The notes under the pieces were generated by a model. The model made no database searches. It saw nothing but the letters and a program-made list of their open reading frames with translations, and was not told the DNA's origin. The position numbers and the translations under genes were made by a program. A stretch of 64,000 bases of DNA from Collinsella aerofaciens (GTDB lineage: Bacteria; Actinomycetota; Coriobacteriia; Coriobacteriales; Coriobacteriaceae): positions 1 to 64,000 of the forward strand of contig NZ_JADNHZ010000003.1 in the NCBI RefSeq assembly GCF_015554145.1, written 5' to 3'. Positions 19,379-59,943 of the stretch are shown here, one piece after another (the stretch's first letter is position 1; each line of letters starts with the position of its first letter).

Positions 19379-19609
19379 TTGGGGACCTCCGATCGAGTCG
19401 TCGGCCGCCCGCGCACAGGATGCGTCGCAAAGCCATTTTACTGCGAGCGCATGCATTCGCAGCTGGTAAACGCGATTTTGACAAACATTTGTTCGATAGT
19501 TACAAACACGATTCCTCGTCCAGCAGAGCCTGGCCGCATTGTCCGGGTTTGCCCGACGTGTTTGCGTTTTCAAAATATCCCGGATCGGCGGGGTGATTCG
19601 GGATACAAT

Positions 19610-19716
19610 CTCAATAGAAAACGACGCACCCCGCGTAAATGTTTGGGAGCGCGGGCGGCCTAGTTTTCAGTTTTTGTTAAATGCCCGGGATCCGACCCCC
19701 GGGCATTCTTATTTGC
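19610..19716 (+). ncRNA. Predicted antisense RNA, copy 2
   Basis: Second copy of the predicted RNA, with TACAAT at 19604-19609 and the terminator hairpin at 19680-19716. Both the -10 box and the stem are conserved relative to copy 1, although the facing toxin frame is broken. Confidence 0.4.
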
Positions 19717-51694: not shown

Positions 51695-52717
51695 CTAGCG
51701 CGAGGTCGAAGCGCGGTGTTCGATGTGGCCGGGGACCTCGATGCGCTTGGGGGCGAGCTTTGCGGCATCGCCCACCGTGGTGGTAACGACGTCGATGCGC
51801 TCGGACAGGCGCTCGACTACGCGCTCGGCAATGGTGAGGGTGTCTTGCGCGGCCGTGGTGACGCCGCCAAAGAGCACGTGGTTCCAGGGGTAATCGTCAA
51901 ACGTCGCAATCTTGAGGCCAGCCGGCAACGAGGGTCCCAACTGTGCCAGTGCCTCGGTCAGACGCAGAAAGACCAGGCCGTTGACGGCAATGAGGCCGAG
52001 CTTTTTACCCGCATAGCCGCGGATGGTCTCGTCCAGGCGACTGACACCTGTGGCGCCACCGTCGGCCAGGGTGACGACCTCGCCCGCAAGACCGCGGCGC
52101 GAAAGCTCGTCGGCAAAGGACTCGGCGCGCTCGCGACGCACGGGGCTGTCATCGCTTGCCTCGGTGAGCAGGCACAGGCGCTCGCTGCCCGCGACAGCCA
52201 AGGCGTCTACCAGGCCGGCGACCAGCTCACGGTTGTTGGAGGTCACCAGATCGATGCCACCGTCGGCAATATCGCGGTCGAGCAGCACGACGGGCAGGCG
52301 CCCCGCAGCCGCGGCAATCGCCTCGTCATTGCCGCCACAGGTGTTGACGACCAGGCCGTCCACGCCGGCATCGATAAGTCTGGTGAGCGACTCCGCTTCC
52401 TTAGCGGGGTCGTTGCCGCTAATGGCCGTCATGAGCGAGCAGCCGCGCGCGGCGGCGCTGGCGGAAAGGCCCTCGAGCATGGCGCTCGAGAACGGGTTGG
52501 CGATGTCAGCCAGAATCACACCGATGAGGTTCGTACGCGAGCTGCGCAGATTGCGCGCGGCGGCACGTGGGCGATAGCCGGTGCGCTCGATAACTGCCGC
52601 GATGCGAGCACGGGTCTCCTCGGTCATTTGCCCGGGGCGGTTGTTGAGATAGCGCGAGACCGTGGCCGGGCTCACGCCCGCCTCGGCGGCAATGTCCTTG
52701 ATTCTCATCTGCGCCAT
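51695..52717 (-). CDS. LacI-family regulator of uronate genes (KdgR-like)
   Basis: 340 residues. The N-terminal helix-turn-helix is IKDIAAEAGVSPATVSRYLN, followed by a periplasmic-binding-like sensor domain (NLIGVILADIANPFSSAMLEG). Divergent from kdgK, so it most probably binds the GAAACCGATTTC-type operators at 52819 and 56196 and senses KDG or KDPG. Start at MAQMRIKD, or three codons later. Named by context. Confidence 0.88.
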   Translation of the reverse strand: MAQMRIKDIAAEAGVSPATVSRYLNNRPGQMTEETRARIAAVIERTGYRPRAAARNLRSSRTNLIGVILADIANPFSSAMLEGLSASAAARGCSLMTAISGNDPAKEAESLTRLIDAGVDGLVVNTCGGNDEAIAAAAGRLPVVLLDRDIADGGIDLVTSNNRELVAGLVDALAVAGSERLCLLTEASDDSPVRRERAESFADELSRRGLAGEVVTLADGGATGVSRLDETIRGYAGKKLGLIAVNGLVFLRLTEALAQLGPSLPAGLKIATFDDYPWNHVLFGGVTTAAQDTLTIAERVVERLSERIDVVTTTVGDAAKLAPKRIEVPGHIEHRASTSR

Positions 52718-52845: not shown

Positions 52846-52849
52846 GCAA

Positions 52850-52907
52850 GCGTTGGCACGCAGGTGCAAAGACGCACCCTACCGTCTTGGCACCTGCGTG
52901 CCAACGC
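52850..52907 (+). ncRNA. Leader element 1, copy 1 (upstream of kdgK)
   Basis: Perfect 18-bp stem: 52850-52867 (GCGTTGGCACGCAGGTGC) pairs with 52890-52907. The apex holds AAGAC-GCACCCTACC-GTCTT, an inner stem with a ten-base loop. The same loop recurs at 56232-56253 on a stem with different sequence. It starts a few bases after the operator, so it would lie at the 5' end of the mRNA. Candidate regulatory RNA; not a named class to my knowledge. Confidence 0.6.
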
Positions 52908-52949
52908 TATATCAAAGGTGTACGCACGAGTAAAAGGAGCTGCGCGACC

Positions 52950-53984
52950 ATGGGTAAAACGGTTCTTACCTTCGGCGAGATCATGATGAGGCTCTCGCCC
53001 AAAGATCATCTGCGCATTGAGCAGGCAACCGAGTTTGACGTCCGCTACGGTGGCGCCGAGGCCAACACCGCTCTTTCTCTCGCCTACCAGGGCGACAAGG
53101 CCGCTTACGTCTCCGTTGTCCCGGCCAACCGTCTGGGCGAGTGCGCCCTGCGTTCGCTGAAGGCCTACGGCGTCGACACCACGCGCGTCGTGCGTCAGGG
53201 CGACCGTCTTGGCTCCTACGTCTTTGAGGTCGGTGCCTCGCAGCGCGGCAACGGCTGCGTCTACGACCGCAAGTACTCTGCCATCAACATGGCCAAGCGC
53301 GATATTTTTGACTGGGACGAGATCCTCAAGGGCATCGATGTCTTCTACTTCTCCGGCGTGACGCCCGCCGTCTCCGATGAGATGGCCGCTGCCTGCAAGG
53401 ATGCGCTCGCCGCCTGCCGCGCCAAGGGCATCACCACCGTGTGCGACGTGAACTATCGCGGCAAGATGTGGTCGCCCGAGAAGTCGCAGGCCACCATGAA
53501 GGAACTCCTGCCGCTCGTCGACATCTGCATCGCCAACGACGAGGATGCGCCCGCCGGCCTCGGCATGACCTGCGTCTCTGGTTCCCTTGCCCATGGCATC
53601 GAGGAGCGCGACACCTATGTCGAGATGGCCCGTCAGATCTGCGCCGAATACGGCTGCGAAAAGGTTGCCTCGGTCGTTCGCAACATCTCCTGCGTCGAGC
53701 GCTCCATCTGGATGGGCATGCTCTTTGACGCCGAGAGCGGCGAGCACTGGTTCTCCCCTGCTCACGACGTACACGTGCTCGAGGGTGTTGCCGCCGGCGA
53801 CGCTTTCAACGCCGGCCTCGTCCATGCCCTCATCAACGACTTTGACCCGCAGGACGCCGTCAACTACGCGATTGCAGCCTCGATCCTCAAACTCACCATC
53901 AAGGGCGATTCCAACTTGGTGACCGCAGGCGAGATTGCAGCCGTGGCATCCGCCGCCGACGGTGGCACCCGCGTCGCGCGCTAG
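52950..53984 (+). CDS. kdgK: 2-keto-3-deoxygluconate kinase
   Basis: Phosphorylates KDG to KDPG in the lower Entner-Doudoroff/uronate route. PfkB-family, 344 residues, with KTVLTFGEIMMRLSP at the start, the substrate region RYGGAEANTALSLA, and the C-terminal catalytic GVAAGDAFNAG (aspartate as base). AAAGGAG stands eleven bases before this ATG; longer starts overlap the leader. Followed by leader element 2 and eda. Confidence 0.93.
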   Translation: MGKTVLTFGEIMMRLSPKDHLRIEQATEFDVRYGGAEANTALSLAYQGDKAAYVSVVPANRLGECALRSLKAYGVDTTRVVRQGDRLGSYVFEVGASQRGNGCVYDRKYSAINMAKRDIFDWDEILKGIDVFYFSGVTPAVSDEMAAACKDALAACRAKGITTVCDVNYRGKMWSPEKSQATMKELLPLVDICIANDEDAPAGLGMTCVSGSLAHGIEERDTYVEMARQICAEYGCEKVASVVRNISCVERSIWMGMLFDAESGEHWFSPAHDVHVLEGVAAGDAFNAGLVHALINDFDPQDAVNYAIAASILKLTIKGDSNLVTAGEIAAVASAADGGTRVAR

Positions 53985-54054
53985 TCCGTCTCCATTCCGC
54001 GGGCCGCAGCCTTCCAATCCCATACCCCTGCGGCACGCTCCCCGATTCCTCCGG

Positions 54055-54185
54055 CCGGGCAAAACCACCAGTCCCATTCCGGTTTTGCCTGGCATTCCCT
54101 ACACGACTGGTCGCGTAGCCGGTTTTGGAATTGCTTGAACCCCAAGCAGTGCCTCCGATAACCAATCCAAAATCGGCTCCTGACC
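54055..54185 (+). ncRNA. Leader element 2, copy 1 (upstream of eda)
   Basis: Three stems: GGCAAAACC/GGTTTTGCC (54058-54088) enclosing AGTCCCATTCC; AGCCGGTTTTGGA pairing with TCCAAAATCGGCT (54117-54178); and TGCTTG/CAAGCA inside it. Invariant with copy 2 are AGTCCCATTCCGG, ACGACTG and the 18-base GCAGTGCCTCCGATAACC (54146-54163). CAGTC can pair with GACTG as a pseudoknot. It ends 50 bases before the eda start. The rest of the kdgK-eda gap (53985-54054) has a GGCCGCAG/CTGCGGC hairpin. Confidence 0.65.
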
Positions 54186-54237
54186 AGCACATTTGGCAAT
54201 CACGCGCCCATGCGCGCCACACATCGAAAGGAACATC

Positions 54238-54879
54238 ATGTTCGATCAGTTCTACACCACGCTTGAGTCCCTGGGCATCGTGCCGGTCGTTGTGCTCGAC
54301 AAGGTCGAGGACGCCGCTCCGCTCGCCCACGCCCTTATGGCAGCTGGCATGAAGTCCGCCGAGGTCACCTTCCGCACCGCCTGCGCCGCCGAGTGCATCG
54401 CCGCTATGGCCGAGGCCGAGCCCGAAATGTGCGTTGGCGCCGGCACTGTCCTGACCGTCGAGCAGGTTGAGCAGGCCCGCGCCGCCGGTGCCAAGTTCAT
54501 CGTCTCCCCGGGTTACAACGAGGACGTCGTGAAGCACTGCATCGACATCGACCTGCCCGTCCTTCCCGGCACCGTGACCCCCTCCGAGGTCACCGCAGCC
54601 GAGAACCTGGGCCTCAAGGTCACCAAGTTCTTCCCCGCGTCCCAGTATGGCGGCCTGAACACCATCAAGGCCCTCGCCGCTCCGTTTGTCGGTCACCGCT
54701 TTATGCCTACCGGCGGCGTGAGCACCGCCAACGTCGAGGAGTACCTGAGCTCCTCCGCCATCATCGCCTGCGGTGGCACCTGGATGGTCAAGCCGGCCCT
54801 GTTTGCCGACGGCGACTTCTCCAAGGTCGAGCAGATCGCCCACGAGGCCATGGACGTCGTCAAGAAGGTCCGCGGCTAG
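54238..54879 (+). CDS. eda: 2-dehydro-3-deoxyphosphogluconate aldolase
   Basis: Splits KDPG to pyruvate and glyceraldehyde 3-phosphate. 213 residues, TIM barrel; the Schiff-base lysine is in KVTKFFPAS and the catalytic glutamate in SAEVTFRT. GAAAGGA precedes MFDQFYTTLE. With kdgK it finishes uronate breakdown. Long structured leader directly upstream; a strong terminator follows. Confidence 0.95.
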   Translation: MFDQFYTTLESLGIVPVVVLDKVEDAAPLAHALMAAGMKSAEVTFRTACAAECIAAMAEAEPEMCVGAGTVLTVEQVEQARAAGAKFIVSPGYNEDVVKHCIDIDLPVLPGTVTPSEVTAAENLGLKVTKFFPASQYGGLNTIKALAAPFVGHRFMPTGGVSTANVEEYLSSSAIIACGGTWMVKPALFADGDFSKVEQIAHEAMDVVKKVRG

Positions 54880-54896
54880 GTTTAGCTCTCTATCGT

Positions 54897-54934
54897 GAAA
54901 GGGGGCGTGCCCTAAACCTCGCCCCCTTTCTTTT
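54897..54934 (+). terminator. Terminator of the kdgK-eda unit
   Basis: GAAAGGGGGCG and CGCCCCCTTTC pair and are followed by TTTTAAA. Confidence 0.85.
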
Positions 54935-54935
54935 A

Positions 54936-55034
54936 AAGCGGCTCGGAAGCGCGCCGTTTCCGTCACGAACAAGAACCAAAACCGTCTTGTATGCTGATAG
55001 AACGTGACGGAAGCGACACGCCCCCGAGCCGCTT
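54936..55034. other. 99-base nested palindrome downstream of eda
   Basis: Outer arms AAGCGGCTCGG/CCGAGCCGCTT (54936-54946, 55024-55034), inner arms TTCCGTCACG/CGTGACGGAA (54958-54967, 55003-55012) and apical ACAAGA/TCTTGT (54969-54990) are all perfect. Nothing coding is apparent. The gap 54880-55270 is filled by this, a second palindrome and a family C element. Confidence 0.6.
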
Positions 55035-55097
55035 TGCCTACTCGGCTGGCAACCGCGCCCAGTTGAGCCACATCGACAAAAACCGAGCCATCAAAAC

Positions 55098-55164
55098 AGC
55101 TGCGGCGCCGTCTGGAGGAATGGACCCTTGCTTCCGGTCTTTTCCTCCAAGCGGCACCGCAGCT
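55098..55164. other. Second long palindrome downstream of eda
   Basis: AGCTGCGG/CCGCAGCT (55098-55105, 55157-55164), GCC/GGC and TGGAGGAA/TTCCTCCA (55113-55149) form a long interrupted stem. Terminator-like or part of an RNA structure. Confidence 0.55.
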
Positions 55165-55190
55165 TTGTGCCCCGGTTACGCCCCAACGCA

Positions 55191-55255
55191 GTTGCGGTGA
55201 AATAGGGACTGTTTGCGCCACCTAGGCCGCAAAACAGTCCCTATTTCACCGCAAC
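55191..55255. repeat. Family C palindrome, copy 1
   Basis: Arms GTTGCGGTGAAATAGGGACT and AGTCCCTATTTCACCGCAAC are perfect complements. It lies 15 bases beyond the GntR gene stop codon. Other copies at 56037, 59877 and 62790. Confidence 0.85.
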
Positions 55256-55270
55256 TTATATGGGGATTGA

Positions 55271-55963
55271 TTAGATGAACGAGTCTTTGGACAGCTCAAA
55301 ATAGTCGGGATGCAAGGCGATAACCGGACCTTGCTCTTCGGGCATCAGGTGCAGGTGTGTCTCTGCCAGATAGCTCGCCGCGTCGGTATCGCCCCTCTTA
55401 ATGGCCTCGAGAATCCGGCGATGCTGCCGACGAATCGGCTCCCAATCCAAATCCTGCGACACCATACGCAACCAGTTATATCGCTCAAAATGCGTGTTGA
55501 TGCTCTTCATCCAATCCCACAACATGTGACGACCGGCAATCTCAAAACATGTCTCATGGAACAGGTTATCCAGGTCAAAGAAACGGCGAGTTTCGCCATG
55601 GTCGAGCGACTCGGACTCGGTAAGAATCTGCTCGAGCCGCTGCTTTTGCTCGGGCGAGGCGGCCGAACAGCATTTAATAAGCACGCTTCTCTCGAGCTTC
55701 TCGCGCAAGAAACAAGCATTCTCGGCGCGTTCCATGCTGATCTTAGAAACGTAGGTGCCGCTTTTGGGACGCGTTTCCACCAGCTCCTGCTCGCGCAGGC
55801 GCACAAAGGACTCGCGAATGGGCGTGCGCCCGATTCCCGTCTCCTTTTCCAGACCAATCGCCGAAAGGCGCGTGCCGGGCTTGAGCTCGGCATAGATAAT
55901 CTTGGAGCGTAATGCGTTGTATGCCTGATCTTGCAGGCTCTGATAATGCTGGTGCTGTTCCAT
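55271..55963 (-). CDS. GntR-family (FadR/FCD subgroup) regulator
   Basis: 230 residues starting MEQHQHYQSL, with GAGGG four bases before this ATG. Winged helix: LKPGTRLSAIGLEKETGIGR, then PIRESFVRLREQELVE. The C-terminal helical FCD domain has the metal/ligand histidines in DLDNLFHETCFE and RRQHRRILEAI. These regulators often sense uronates or related acids. Flanked on both sides by family C palindromes. It may bind the GTGAACGTTCAC sites at 56126 and 58899; that is inference. Confidence 0.88.
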   Translation of the reverse strand: MEQHQHYQSLQDQAYNALRSKIIYAELKPGTRLSAIGLEKETGIGRTPIRESFVRLREQELVETRPKSGTYVSKISMERAENACFLREKLERSVLIKCCSAASPEQKQRLEQILTESESLDHGETRRFFDLDNLFHETCFEIAGRHMLWDWMKSINTHFERYNWLRMVSQDLDWEPIRRQHRRILEAIKRGDTDAASYLAETHLHLMPEEQGPVIALHPDYFELSKDSFI

Positions 55964-56036
55964 AAAGCCCTCGGATAAACCCTCGGTTAGTCGAATACCA
56001 CCATGCAATACTATCGCATCCCCCGCCCCCTCATAA

Positions 56037-56101
56037 GTTGCGGTGGAATAGTTCCTGTTCAAGGCCTTCAGCAGCAAAAACAGGAACTATTCCACCGCAA
56101 C
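56037..56101. repeat. Family C palindrome, copy 2
   Basis: Arms GTTGCGGTGGAATAGTTCCT and AGGAACTATTCCACCGCAAC match each other but differ from copy 1 at paired positions, so the stem is conserved by compensating changes. Confidence 0.85.
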
Positions 56102-56125
56102 TACAGCCAACGAGTTGTTGCGATT

Positions 56126-56141
56126 AGGTGAACGTTCACCT
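56126..56141. promoter_or_regulatory. Perfect 16-bp operator-like palindrome, copy 1
   Basis: AGGTGAACGTTCACCT. The core GTGAACGTTCAC recurs at 58899-58910 upstream of the dhuD-like gene. Between the GntR gene and the YczE-like gene, about 40 bases upstream of the latter's promoter. Confidence 0.65.
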
Positions 56142-56157
56142 TTTTATTGTTTTTCTC

Positions 56158-56209
56158 TTCGCAAATAAAATCCCGTGCGTATACTTAGGCTCAAACGAAA
56201 CCGATTTCG
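56158..56209 (+). promoter_or_regulatory. Promoter and LacI-type operator of the YczE-like gene
   Basis: TTCGCA (56158-56163) and TATACT (56180-56185) 16 bases apart, followed by the operator CGAAACCGATTTCG (56196-56209), identical to the one before kdgK. Confidence 0.65.
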
Positions 56210-56213
56210 TTGA

Positions 56214-56271
56214 GCGTGGGCAATAGGATGCTAAGACGCACCCTACCATCTTGGCATCTTATCGCCCACGC
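56214..56271 (+). ncRNA. Leader element 1, copy 2
   Basis: Arms GCGTGGGCAATAGGATGC (56214-56231) and GCATCTTATCGCCCACGC (56254-56271): 16 Watson-Crick pairs, one G-U, one mismatch. The apex TAAGACGCACCCTACC-ATCTTG is almost the same as copy 1 although the stem sequence is different. It lies five bases after the operator. Confidence 0.6.
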
Positions 56272-56291
56272 AATACCATTTGCTTTCTTCC

Positions 56292-56417
56292 CGTCTCGTT
56301 GGACCTTTAGTCCCATTCCGGCACAGCGAGACACTTCCTAGACGACTGACCGTGGGGCCGGCTTTTCTGCTTTTGCAGCAGTGCCTCCGATAACCCTCTT
56401 TTGCCGGCCCGGGTCAG
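56292..56417 (+). ncRNA. Leader element 2, copy 2
   Basis: GTCTCGTTG/CAGCGAGAC (56293-56332) encloses AGTCCCATTCCGG; GGGCCGGC/GCCGGCCC (about 56355-56410) encloses CTGC/GCAG and then the invariant GCAGTGCCTCCGATAACC (56378-56395). All three stems have new sequence but the same layout as at 54055. AGTC can again pair with GACT. It lies 33 bases before the YczE-like start. Confidence 0.65.
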
Positions 56418-56450: not shown

Positions 56451-57131
56451 ATGCGACCGCTCATCATCATGCATGGCGAGAACATCGACTGGTGCCATAC
56501 CGTCATCAGAATGCTGATGTATCTTGTGGGCGTTGCAGTACTGGCACTCGGTATGAGTCTCCAGACGGCATCCGGCCTGGGCGTCGCCGCGCTCACGTGC
56601 TTTGCCACAACCCTATCCATGCTCACTGGCAAGACGCTCGGCTTTTGGATCACCGCAACCTACGTCGCCTACATCGTGGCGCAATTAGCCATCTTGCGAA
56701 GCGAGTTCCAGCCGCGCATCCTGCTCGAGTTGTTCTTCTCAACGCTGATTGGCGGCTTGACCGACCTCTTCATGGCGGTCAACCCACTGCATCCCACGGC
56801 ACTCCCCACACAGATTGCGACCATGCTGCTCTCCCTCGCTGTCACCGCATTTGGCGTAAGTCTCGTCGTCAACATGGGCGTTGTCCCCAACGCGCCCGAC
56901 GGCTTGGTGCAAGTCATTGCCGAAAAGCTTAAACGCCGCTTTGGTGACGTAAAAGTCGTGTTTGACTGCTCACATGTCGCCGCCTCGCTCGCGTTGTCGC
57001 TGATCTTTATGTACAACCTGGGCGGCTTTTGCGTCACGACCGCCATCTCGGCACTGTTCCTGGGCCATGTCATCAACGTCGCCAACAAGCTGTTCGCCCA
57101 GCGCTTTATCCGCGCGGCATTCGGAAAATAG
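56451..57131 (+). CDS. YczE/YyaS/YitT-like integral membrane protein
   Basis: 226 residues with five or six membrane segments (VIRMLMYLVGVAVLALGMSL; ILLELFFSTLIGGLTDLFMA; IATMLLSLAVTAFGVSLVVN). The opening GMSLQTASGLGV and the middle VPNAPDGLVQVIAEKL are typical of the YczE/DUF6198 group. Function of the family is unclear. Controlled by the same operator and leader elements as kdgK/eda, so it may be a uronate transporter component or accessory protein; inference. AAAGGACG precedes the ATG. Confidence 0.8.
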   Translation: MRPLIIMHGENIDWCHTVIRMLMYLVGVAVLALGMSLQTASGLGVAALTCFATTLSMLTGKTLGFWITATYVAYIVAQLAILRSEFQPRILLELFFSTLIGGLTDLFMAVNPLHPTALPTQIATMLLSLAVTAFGVSLVVNMGVVPNAPDGLVQVIAEKLKRRFGDVKVVFDCSHVAASLALSLIFMYNLGGFCVTTAISALFLGHVINVANKLFAQRFIRAAFGK

Positions 57132-59825: not shown

Positions 59826-59876
59826 GCGTCGCCGCAACTGCCCACATCAGGTTTCATCCACTCGTTTTTCATTTGA

Positions 59877-59943
59877 GTTGCGGTGAGATAAGGATTGGCT
59901 TTGGCTTCTATCAGGCAAAACAGTCCGTATTTCACCGCAAGTT
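59877..59943. repeat. Family C palindrome, copy 3 (degenerate)
   Basis: Arms GTTGCGGTGAGATAAGGA and a partly matching ACAGTCCGTATTTCACCGCAAG. It sits between the dhuD-like and dhuI-like genes, so both may be on one transcript passing through it. Confidence 0.75.

Follow-up and report, generated by a model that had tools for sequence, protein, structure and literature searches.

Gene context of the two E2 copies

The DNA analysed here, a 64,000-nucleotide stretch of Collinsella aerofaciens hereafter called the window, carries two copies of a structured element of about 130 bases that we term E2. The first copy (E2-A; positions 54051..54187, + strand) lies between a gene for a PfkB-type sugar-acid kinase resembling kdgK (52950..53984, +; PF00294) and eda (54238..54879, +), which encodes a KHG/KDPG aldolase (TIGR01182 above cut-off, and PF01081). 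The second copy (E2-B; 56290..56417, +) is located in the leader of a gene for a YczE-like membrane protein (DUF6198; 56451..57131, +) that scores above the cut-off of PF19700 and below that of the NCBIfam YczE model. The best NCBIfam models for the kinase are KDG-kinase types, also below cut-off, and a gene for a LacI-family regulator (PF00356) is encoded beside kdgK on the other strand (51695..52717, -).

The transcription units of kdgK and yczE both begin with a CGAAACCGATTTCG operator-like site that is followed by a second element, termed E1. This element is an 18-19-bp hairpin whose loop is of a conserved AAGAYGYACCCTACC type and whose stem exhibits compensatory changes. One E1 copy resides in the kdgK leader (52849..52908, +) and is present in 17 of 17 genomes with E2-A, and the other is located directly 5′ of E2-B (56214..56273, +) and is present in 8 of 8 genomes with E2-B. 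An additional match to the E1 core, found elsewhere with one mismatch, was rejected because it reads as a portion of a protein-coding frame and no hairpin was seen. The order of parts is therefore operator-E1-kdgK-E2-eda in one unit and operator-E1-E2-yczE in the other; from this compressed order, yczE would seem to be under both of the signals that act on the kdgK-eda operon.

Like the KHG/KDPG aldolase, a gluconate 5-dehydrogenase-type SDR scores above its curated cut-off, and in one relative a GntP gluconate symporter gene sits between gntR and yczE. As judged from sequence, the assignment of the eda and yczE units to one operator-linked sugar-acid regulon is supported. The initial annotation had linked E2 to a uronate/Entner-Doudoroff pathway; gene content bears out sugar-acid catabolism but does not establish uronate specifically.

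A separate hairpin with a C-rich loop (CCAATCCCATACCC type) occupies the spacer just 5′ of E2-A (53999-54040). It is conserved in genomes carrying E2-A and exhibits some compensatory changes; in the window, its stem contains a mismatch.

Conserved sequences and secondary structure of E2

The two copies share several sequence blocks in the same order, located exactly as the initial annotation had claimed. Specifically, AGTCCCATTCCGG starts at 54070 and 56309, ACGACTG is located at 54103 in E2-A and 56342 in E2-B, and GCAGTGCCTCCGATAACC, an 18-mer, ends at 54163 and 56395, respectively. The only exact matches to the 15-mer GTGCCTCCGATAACC in the 2.45-Mb genome are at the E2-A and E2-B sites. The element had previously been bounded at 54055-54185 and 56292-56417; both places hold, but the true extents are those given above. 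A covariance model termed R1 matches E2-A with 158.8 bits (E 9e-36) and E2-B with 116.9 bits, scores that come from a model itself built from both copies.

E2 begins with hairpin P1, which has a 14-15-nt loop, and continues through a 13-column linker and the sequence GACT into stem P2, which is arranged around P3, which in turn is arranged around P4. In E2-A, P1 spans 54054..54093 (+; 54054-54066 / 54081-54093), and its loop carries the invariant AGTCCCATTCC at 54070-54080. P2 spans 54107..54187 (+; 54107-54112 / 54182-54187) with compensatory changes at two pairs, and P3 spans 54117..54178 (+; 54117-54129 / 54166-54178) with compensatory changes at four pairs. The P4 hairpin spans 54131..54149 (+; 54131-54137 / 54143-54149). 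In E2-B, the corresponding features are P1 at 56293..56332 (+; 56293-56301 / 56324-56332), with AGTCCCATTCC in its loop at 56309-56319; P2 at 56346..56417 (+; 56346-56351 / 56412-56417), which is overlapped by GACT at 56344-56347; and a P3 from fold prediction at 56355..56410 (+; 56355-56362 / 56403-56410). The P2 sequences of the two copies are CTGGTC/GACCAG versus CTGACC/GGTCAG.

Within P3, the P4 hairpin is followed by the almost invariant AGTGCCTCCGATAACC, which forms a mostly unpaired 3′ bulge (54148..54163, +, in E2-A). The equivalent segment in E2-B is located at 56380..56395 (+).

The minimum-energy fold of E2-A consists of P1, P2, P3 and P4, and that of E2-B has the same stem order with shorter P3 and P4. 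Three stems had been named initially, and these (P1, P3 and P4) are real according to the minimum-energy fold, but the fourth stem, P2, had been overlooked. Folding z-scores on the + strand are -6.7 for E2-A and -2.8 for E2-B, and those on the - strand (-1.8 and -1.6, respectively) are far less unusual. Ensemble predictions give stems of very high stability and leave the conserved segments unpaired.

Covariation and a candidate pseudoknot

As a caveat, of two alignments, A3 was fitted to the covariance model and A2 was not. With 20 distinct sequences aligned, pairing is kept in 93.0% of cells, and two-sided changes are seen at 15 of the 39 pairs, compared with 1-4 in slid controls. Random re-pairing of the same columns gave a mean of 2.5 and a maximum of 8 such pairs in 5,000, and the value of 15 was never reached. 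A set of 12 distinct sequences yielded 13 two-sided pairs versus at most 4 in slid controls. When E2-A is compared with E2-B, pairing is kept in 10 of the 12 pairs altered on both sides, and random re-pairing for this comparison gave a mean of 1.0 and a maximum of 5 in 5,000. The covariation signal stems partly from this single A/B split. Sub-groups within A carry further compensatory changes, at P2 pair 63-135 and at P3 pairs 77-122 and 78-121. The proposal that the stems differ in sequence yet remain paired is supported by shuffled and slid pair-count controls, which were used in place of R-scape.

The unpaired segments vary much less than the stems. Among the same 20 sequences, 13 of the 16 bulge columns and 11 of the 15 P1-loop columns are invariant, versus only 25 of the 78 stem columns.

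The AGTC in the P1 loop (54070-54073) and the GACT that overlaps P2 (54105..54108, +, in E2-A) are candidate pseudoknot partners that are conserved and do not covary. Three of the five pairs are invariant, one exhibits a U-G/C-G swap and one is broken in one group. Because these columns are nearly invariant, covariation argues neither for nor against the pairing. The helix shares two bases with P2, or three when a flanking Y-G pair is counted, and so could coexist with P2 only if the latter is shortened. Formation of an AGTC/GACT pseudoknot in E2 is possible on these grounds.

Distribution of E2

Searches with R1 identified E2 in 17 of 45 Collinsella genomes, all from the C. aerofaciens group; a lack of further homologues, which would have refuted the initial annotation, was therefore not observed. 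E2 was found in none of approximately 770 other genomes run through the model. The search sets comprised 400 genomes of the class, 397 genomes of the phylum and 40 relatives for which laxer filters were used. Neither the remaining genomes of the class set nor the 397 phylum genomes gave a match, under strict filters that could miss distant forms, and the 40 relatives gave nothing above chance level (best E = 0.16). An exact-pattern scan of GTDB contigs from 84,980 species recovered the element from Collinsella only.

E2-A accompanies every eda orthologue of at least 96% identity (17/17), and E2-B occurs exactly where there is a yczE orthologue of at least 89% identity (8/8). A genome carries at most two copies, at fixed places, and each is always in the same sense as, and immediately 5′ of, eda (17/17) or yczE (8/8). 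In more distant relatives, R1 found no match at either the eda or the yczE locus. Where kdgK and eda are paired in those relatives, a LacI-type gene and a similar operator-like sequence are present but E2 is not (spacers read by eye), which indicates that E2 is an addition in one lineage.

Several weaker candidates were rejected. Matches to the 15-mer in IMG/VR lack the rest of the element, and two flagged sites fit the upstream block only with up to 3 mismatches. Low-score matches at two further loci (L155 and L156) look like chance. In one genome (G003, locus L111), eda is broken by an in-frame stop/frameshift and E2-A is still present.

Comparison with known RNAs

When the whole window was searched with Rfam 15, only tmRNA reached its gathering score. 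Permissive scans of E2 (to E = 10) returned chance-level matches only, and E2 thus matches no family in that collection; a hit to a known family, another outcome that would have refuted the initial annotation, was not obtained. Collinsella-1 (RF01700), the relative suggested initially, is a structured RNA whose first description came from Collinsella and the human gut and which was not judged to be cis-regulatory (PMC2864571). The comparison was made, and E2 was rejected as a member since RF01700 has no match at E2 up to E = 10. The sole RF01700 match in this genome is elsewhere in the window (19535-19704) and is sub-threshold at 24.4 bits (cut-off 35); by sequence, it is possibly a diverged Collinsella-1 member. 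A study of human-microbiome candidate structured RNAs mentions one Collinsella motif of 51 bp, located 5′ of ribosomal protein L7/L12, which represents the same kind of predicted leader as E2 but has a different downstream gene (PMC8040213).

A riboswitch that responds to KDG, KDPG or a related sugar acid is not known to us, and none emerged from a limited search of the literature, which likewise yielded none linked to KDPG aldolase or gluconate.

The P1 loop recurs between ygeY and ygeW

The loop sequence AGTCCCATTCC also caps an 11-12-bp hairpin whose stem is unrelated to P1 and which is located between ygeY and ygeW, where it overlaps the stop codon of ygeY (L206:3030-3280, on contig C17 of the same genome). 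This hairpin is found in genomes of the C. aerofaciens group, some of them without E2. The AGTCCCATTCC word count revealed no enrichment. The chance that one of the approximately two non-E2 matches would lie in such a hairpin is about one in a thousand, a post hoc estimate based on hairpin frequency in the window. The shared loop may therefore serve for docking and not as a sensor specific to one pathway, and the fact that it recurs in a catabolic operon unrelated to eda and yczE hints at an RNA-recognition system common to such sites in Collinsella. An Rfam search of the hairpins in the ygeY-ygeW region gave no match.

Another AGTCCCATTCC site (C22) was rejected, as the sequence in which it lies looks like the conserved 3′ end of a reading frame. 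Further down locus L206 is a second hairpin with the loop TCTCCCATGCTT, which is conserved with differing stems in several other Collinsella (L223, L227-L230 and L235).

Possible functions of E2

The evidence for covarying structure, restricted distribution and constant placement leaves us highly confident that E2 is a genuine, new, lineage-restricted, cis-acting structured leader RNA. That it functions as a small-molecule riboswitch is a reading we hold tentatively. E2 displays features by which riboswitches are recognised, namely a conserved, covarying secondary structure in the transcribed sense and a position 5′ of genes from one pathway in the same orientation. Its covariation is well above that of slid and re-paired controls, its unpaired cores are nearly frozen while the stems drift, and both units share the operator-like site and a sugar-acid pathway. 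In this respect E2 resembles riboswitches with loop-linker pseudoknots, which likewise have covarying stems and a conserved unpaired core 5′ of metabolic genes from one pathway. Unlike those RNAs, however, E2 has no recognisable expression platform, is restricted to one species group and has no Rfam 15 match.

Of the metabolite-sensing riboswitch proposed initially, the covarying RNA in the sense of the downstream genes stands, but the expected signs of switching were not found. There is no intrinsic terminator after E2, and no conserved sequestration of the ribosome site was found. The pairing predicted for that site differs little between species and does not shift consistently when the bases of the pseudoknot are kept from pairing in P2. 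Also counting against a riboswitch are the pseudoknot, which does not covary and has a pair broken in one branch, and the presence of the same loop atop the unrelated ygeY-ygeW hairpin. Furthermore, most riboswitches are not confined to one species group, and outgroup kdgK-eda operons work without E2. The combination of very stable stems and free conserved segments gives E2 the appearance of a pre-formed receptor and not of a thermodynamic switch in secondary structure. This leaves either an aptamer whose output is hidden from these tools, or a site at which a protein or small RNA docks; the loop shared with the ygeY-ygeW hairpin favours the latter.

If E2 is an aptamer, it would be a pre-folded leader RNA that tunes eda and the YczE-like gene downstream of common LacI-type transcriptional control. 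The invariant P1 loop and P3 bulge would create a receptor core that binds a small molecule and is probably closed by the AGUC/GACU loop-linker pseudoknot. Since this pseudoknot competes with the base of P2, ligand binding would lengthen or shorten P2 and thereby change the output of the downstream gene, most likely at the level of translation or mRNA given that no terminator was found. Any ligand would be a metabolite of the sugar-acid pathway such as KDG, KDPG, a ketogluconate or gluconate. The more specific proposal that E2 founds a new sugar-acid (ketodeoxygluconate / Entner-Doudoroff) riboswitch class, in tandem with E1 in the yczE leader, is unlikely; if true, a single yczE transcript would read two signals. 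E2 is an orphan structured RNA from an abundant human gut genus, and its two paralogous copies in one regulon and its frozen unpaired core make it a compact target for the discovery of a ligand or partner.

Somewhat more doubtful than an aptamer is a docking site for a trans-acting RNA-binding protein or small RNA, in which the stems would display C-rich loops (AGUCCCAUUCC, UGCCUCCGAUAACC) to a partner that controls how the eda and yczE mRNAs are translated or degraded. The seemingly constitutive fold, with loops unpaired in the ensemble, fits this explanation, as does the identical 11-nt loop on the ygeY-ygeW hairpin. C-rich loops are also present in E1 (ACGCACCCTACC) and in the spacer hairpin before E2-A (ATCCCATACCC). 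In contrast, genomic complements of the 15-nt bulge core (up to 2 mismatches) are not above chance, although short seeds would escape such a search, and the pathway-specific choice of genes and the long asymmetric bulge suit an aptamer at least equally.

It is improbable that E2 serves in mRNA processing or stability, as a ribozyme-like or RNase-guided element that parts kdgK from eda and shields the mRNA downstream without sensing anything. In favour of this reading, E2-A is intercistronic, and no promoter-like site was found between kdgK and eda. However, E2-B resides in a 5′ leader where there is no upstream gene to separate, and the frozen long bulges exceed the needs of a simple barrier hairpin. 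In pistol ribozymes, a hairpin loop pairs with a linker before a long stem with an internal loop. E2 loosely recalls this arrangement, a similarity of topology only, but the large P3 bulge and P4 are absent from pistol, and the ribozyme models of Rfam gave no match to E2 up to E = 10.

Although the window is rich in dispersed hairpin repeats, it is very improbable that E2 is a DNA-level feature (an operator pair or selfish palindromic repeat) and not a functional RNA, given that only two copies occur per genome, both at fixed places, that stem sequences are free to change while pairing and unpaired strands are kept, and that both the G-U pairs and the folding energy point to the + strand.

Other hairpins in the window

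Two hairpins of 24-25 bp that start with AGTTGCGGTG(A/G)AATAG are located on either side of gntR (55190-55256 and 56036-56102), and related sequence occurs before rpiB, near 59875-59940. A REP-like palindrome, CCACCACAAAGG-TGCCTGNCC-CCTTTGTGGTGG, is present in at least 7 copies in the window (17971, 27464, 28427, 30011, 34325, 35047 and 48578).
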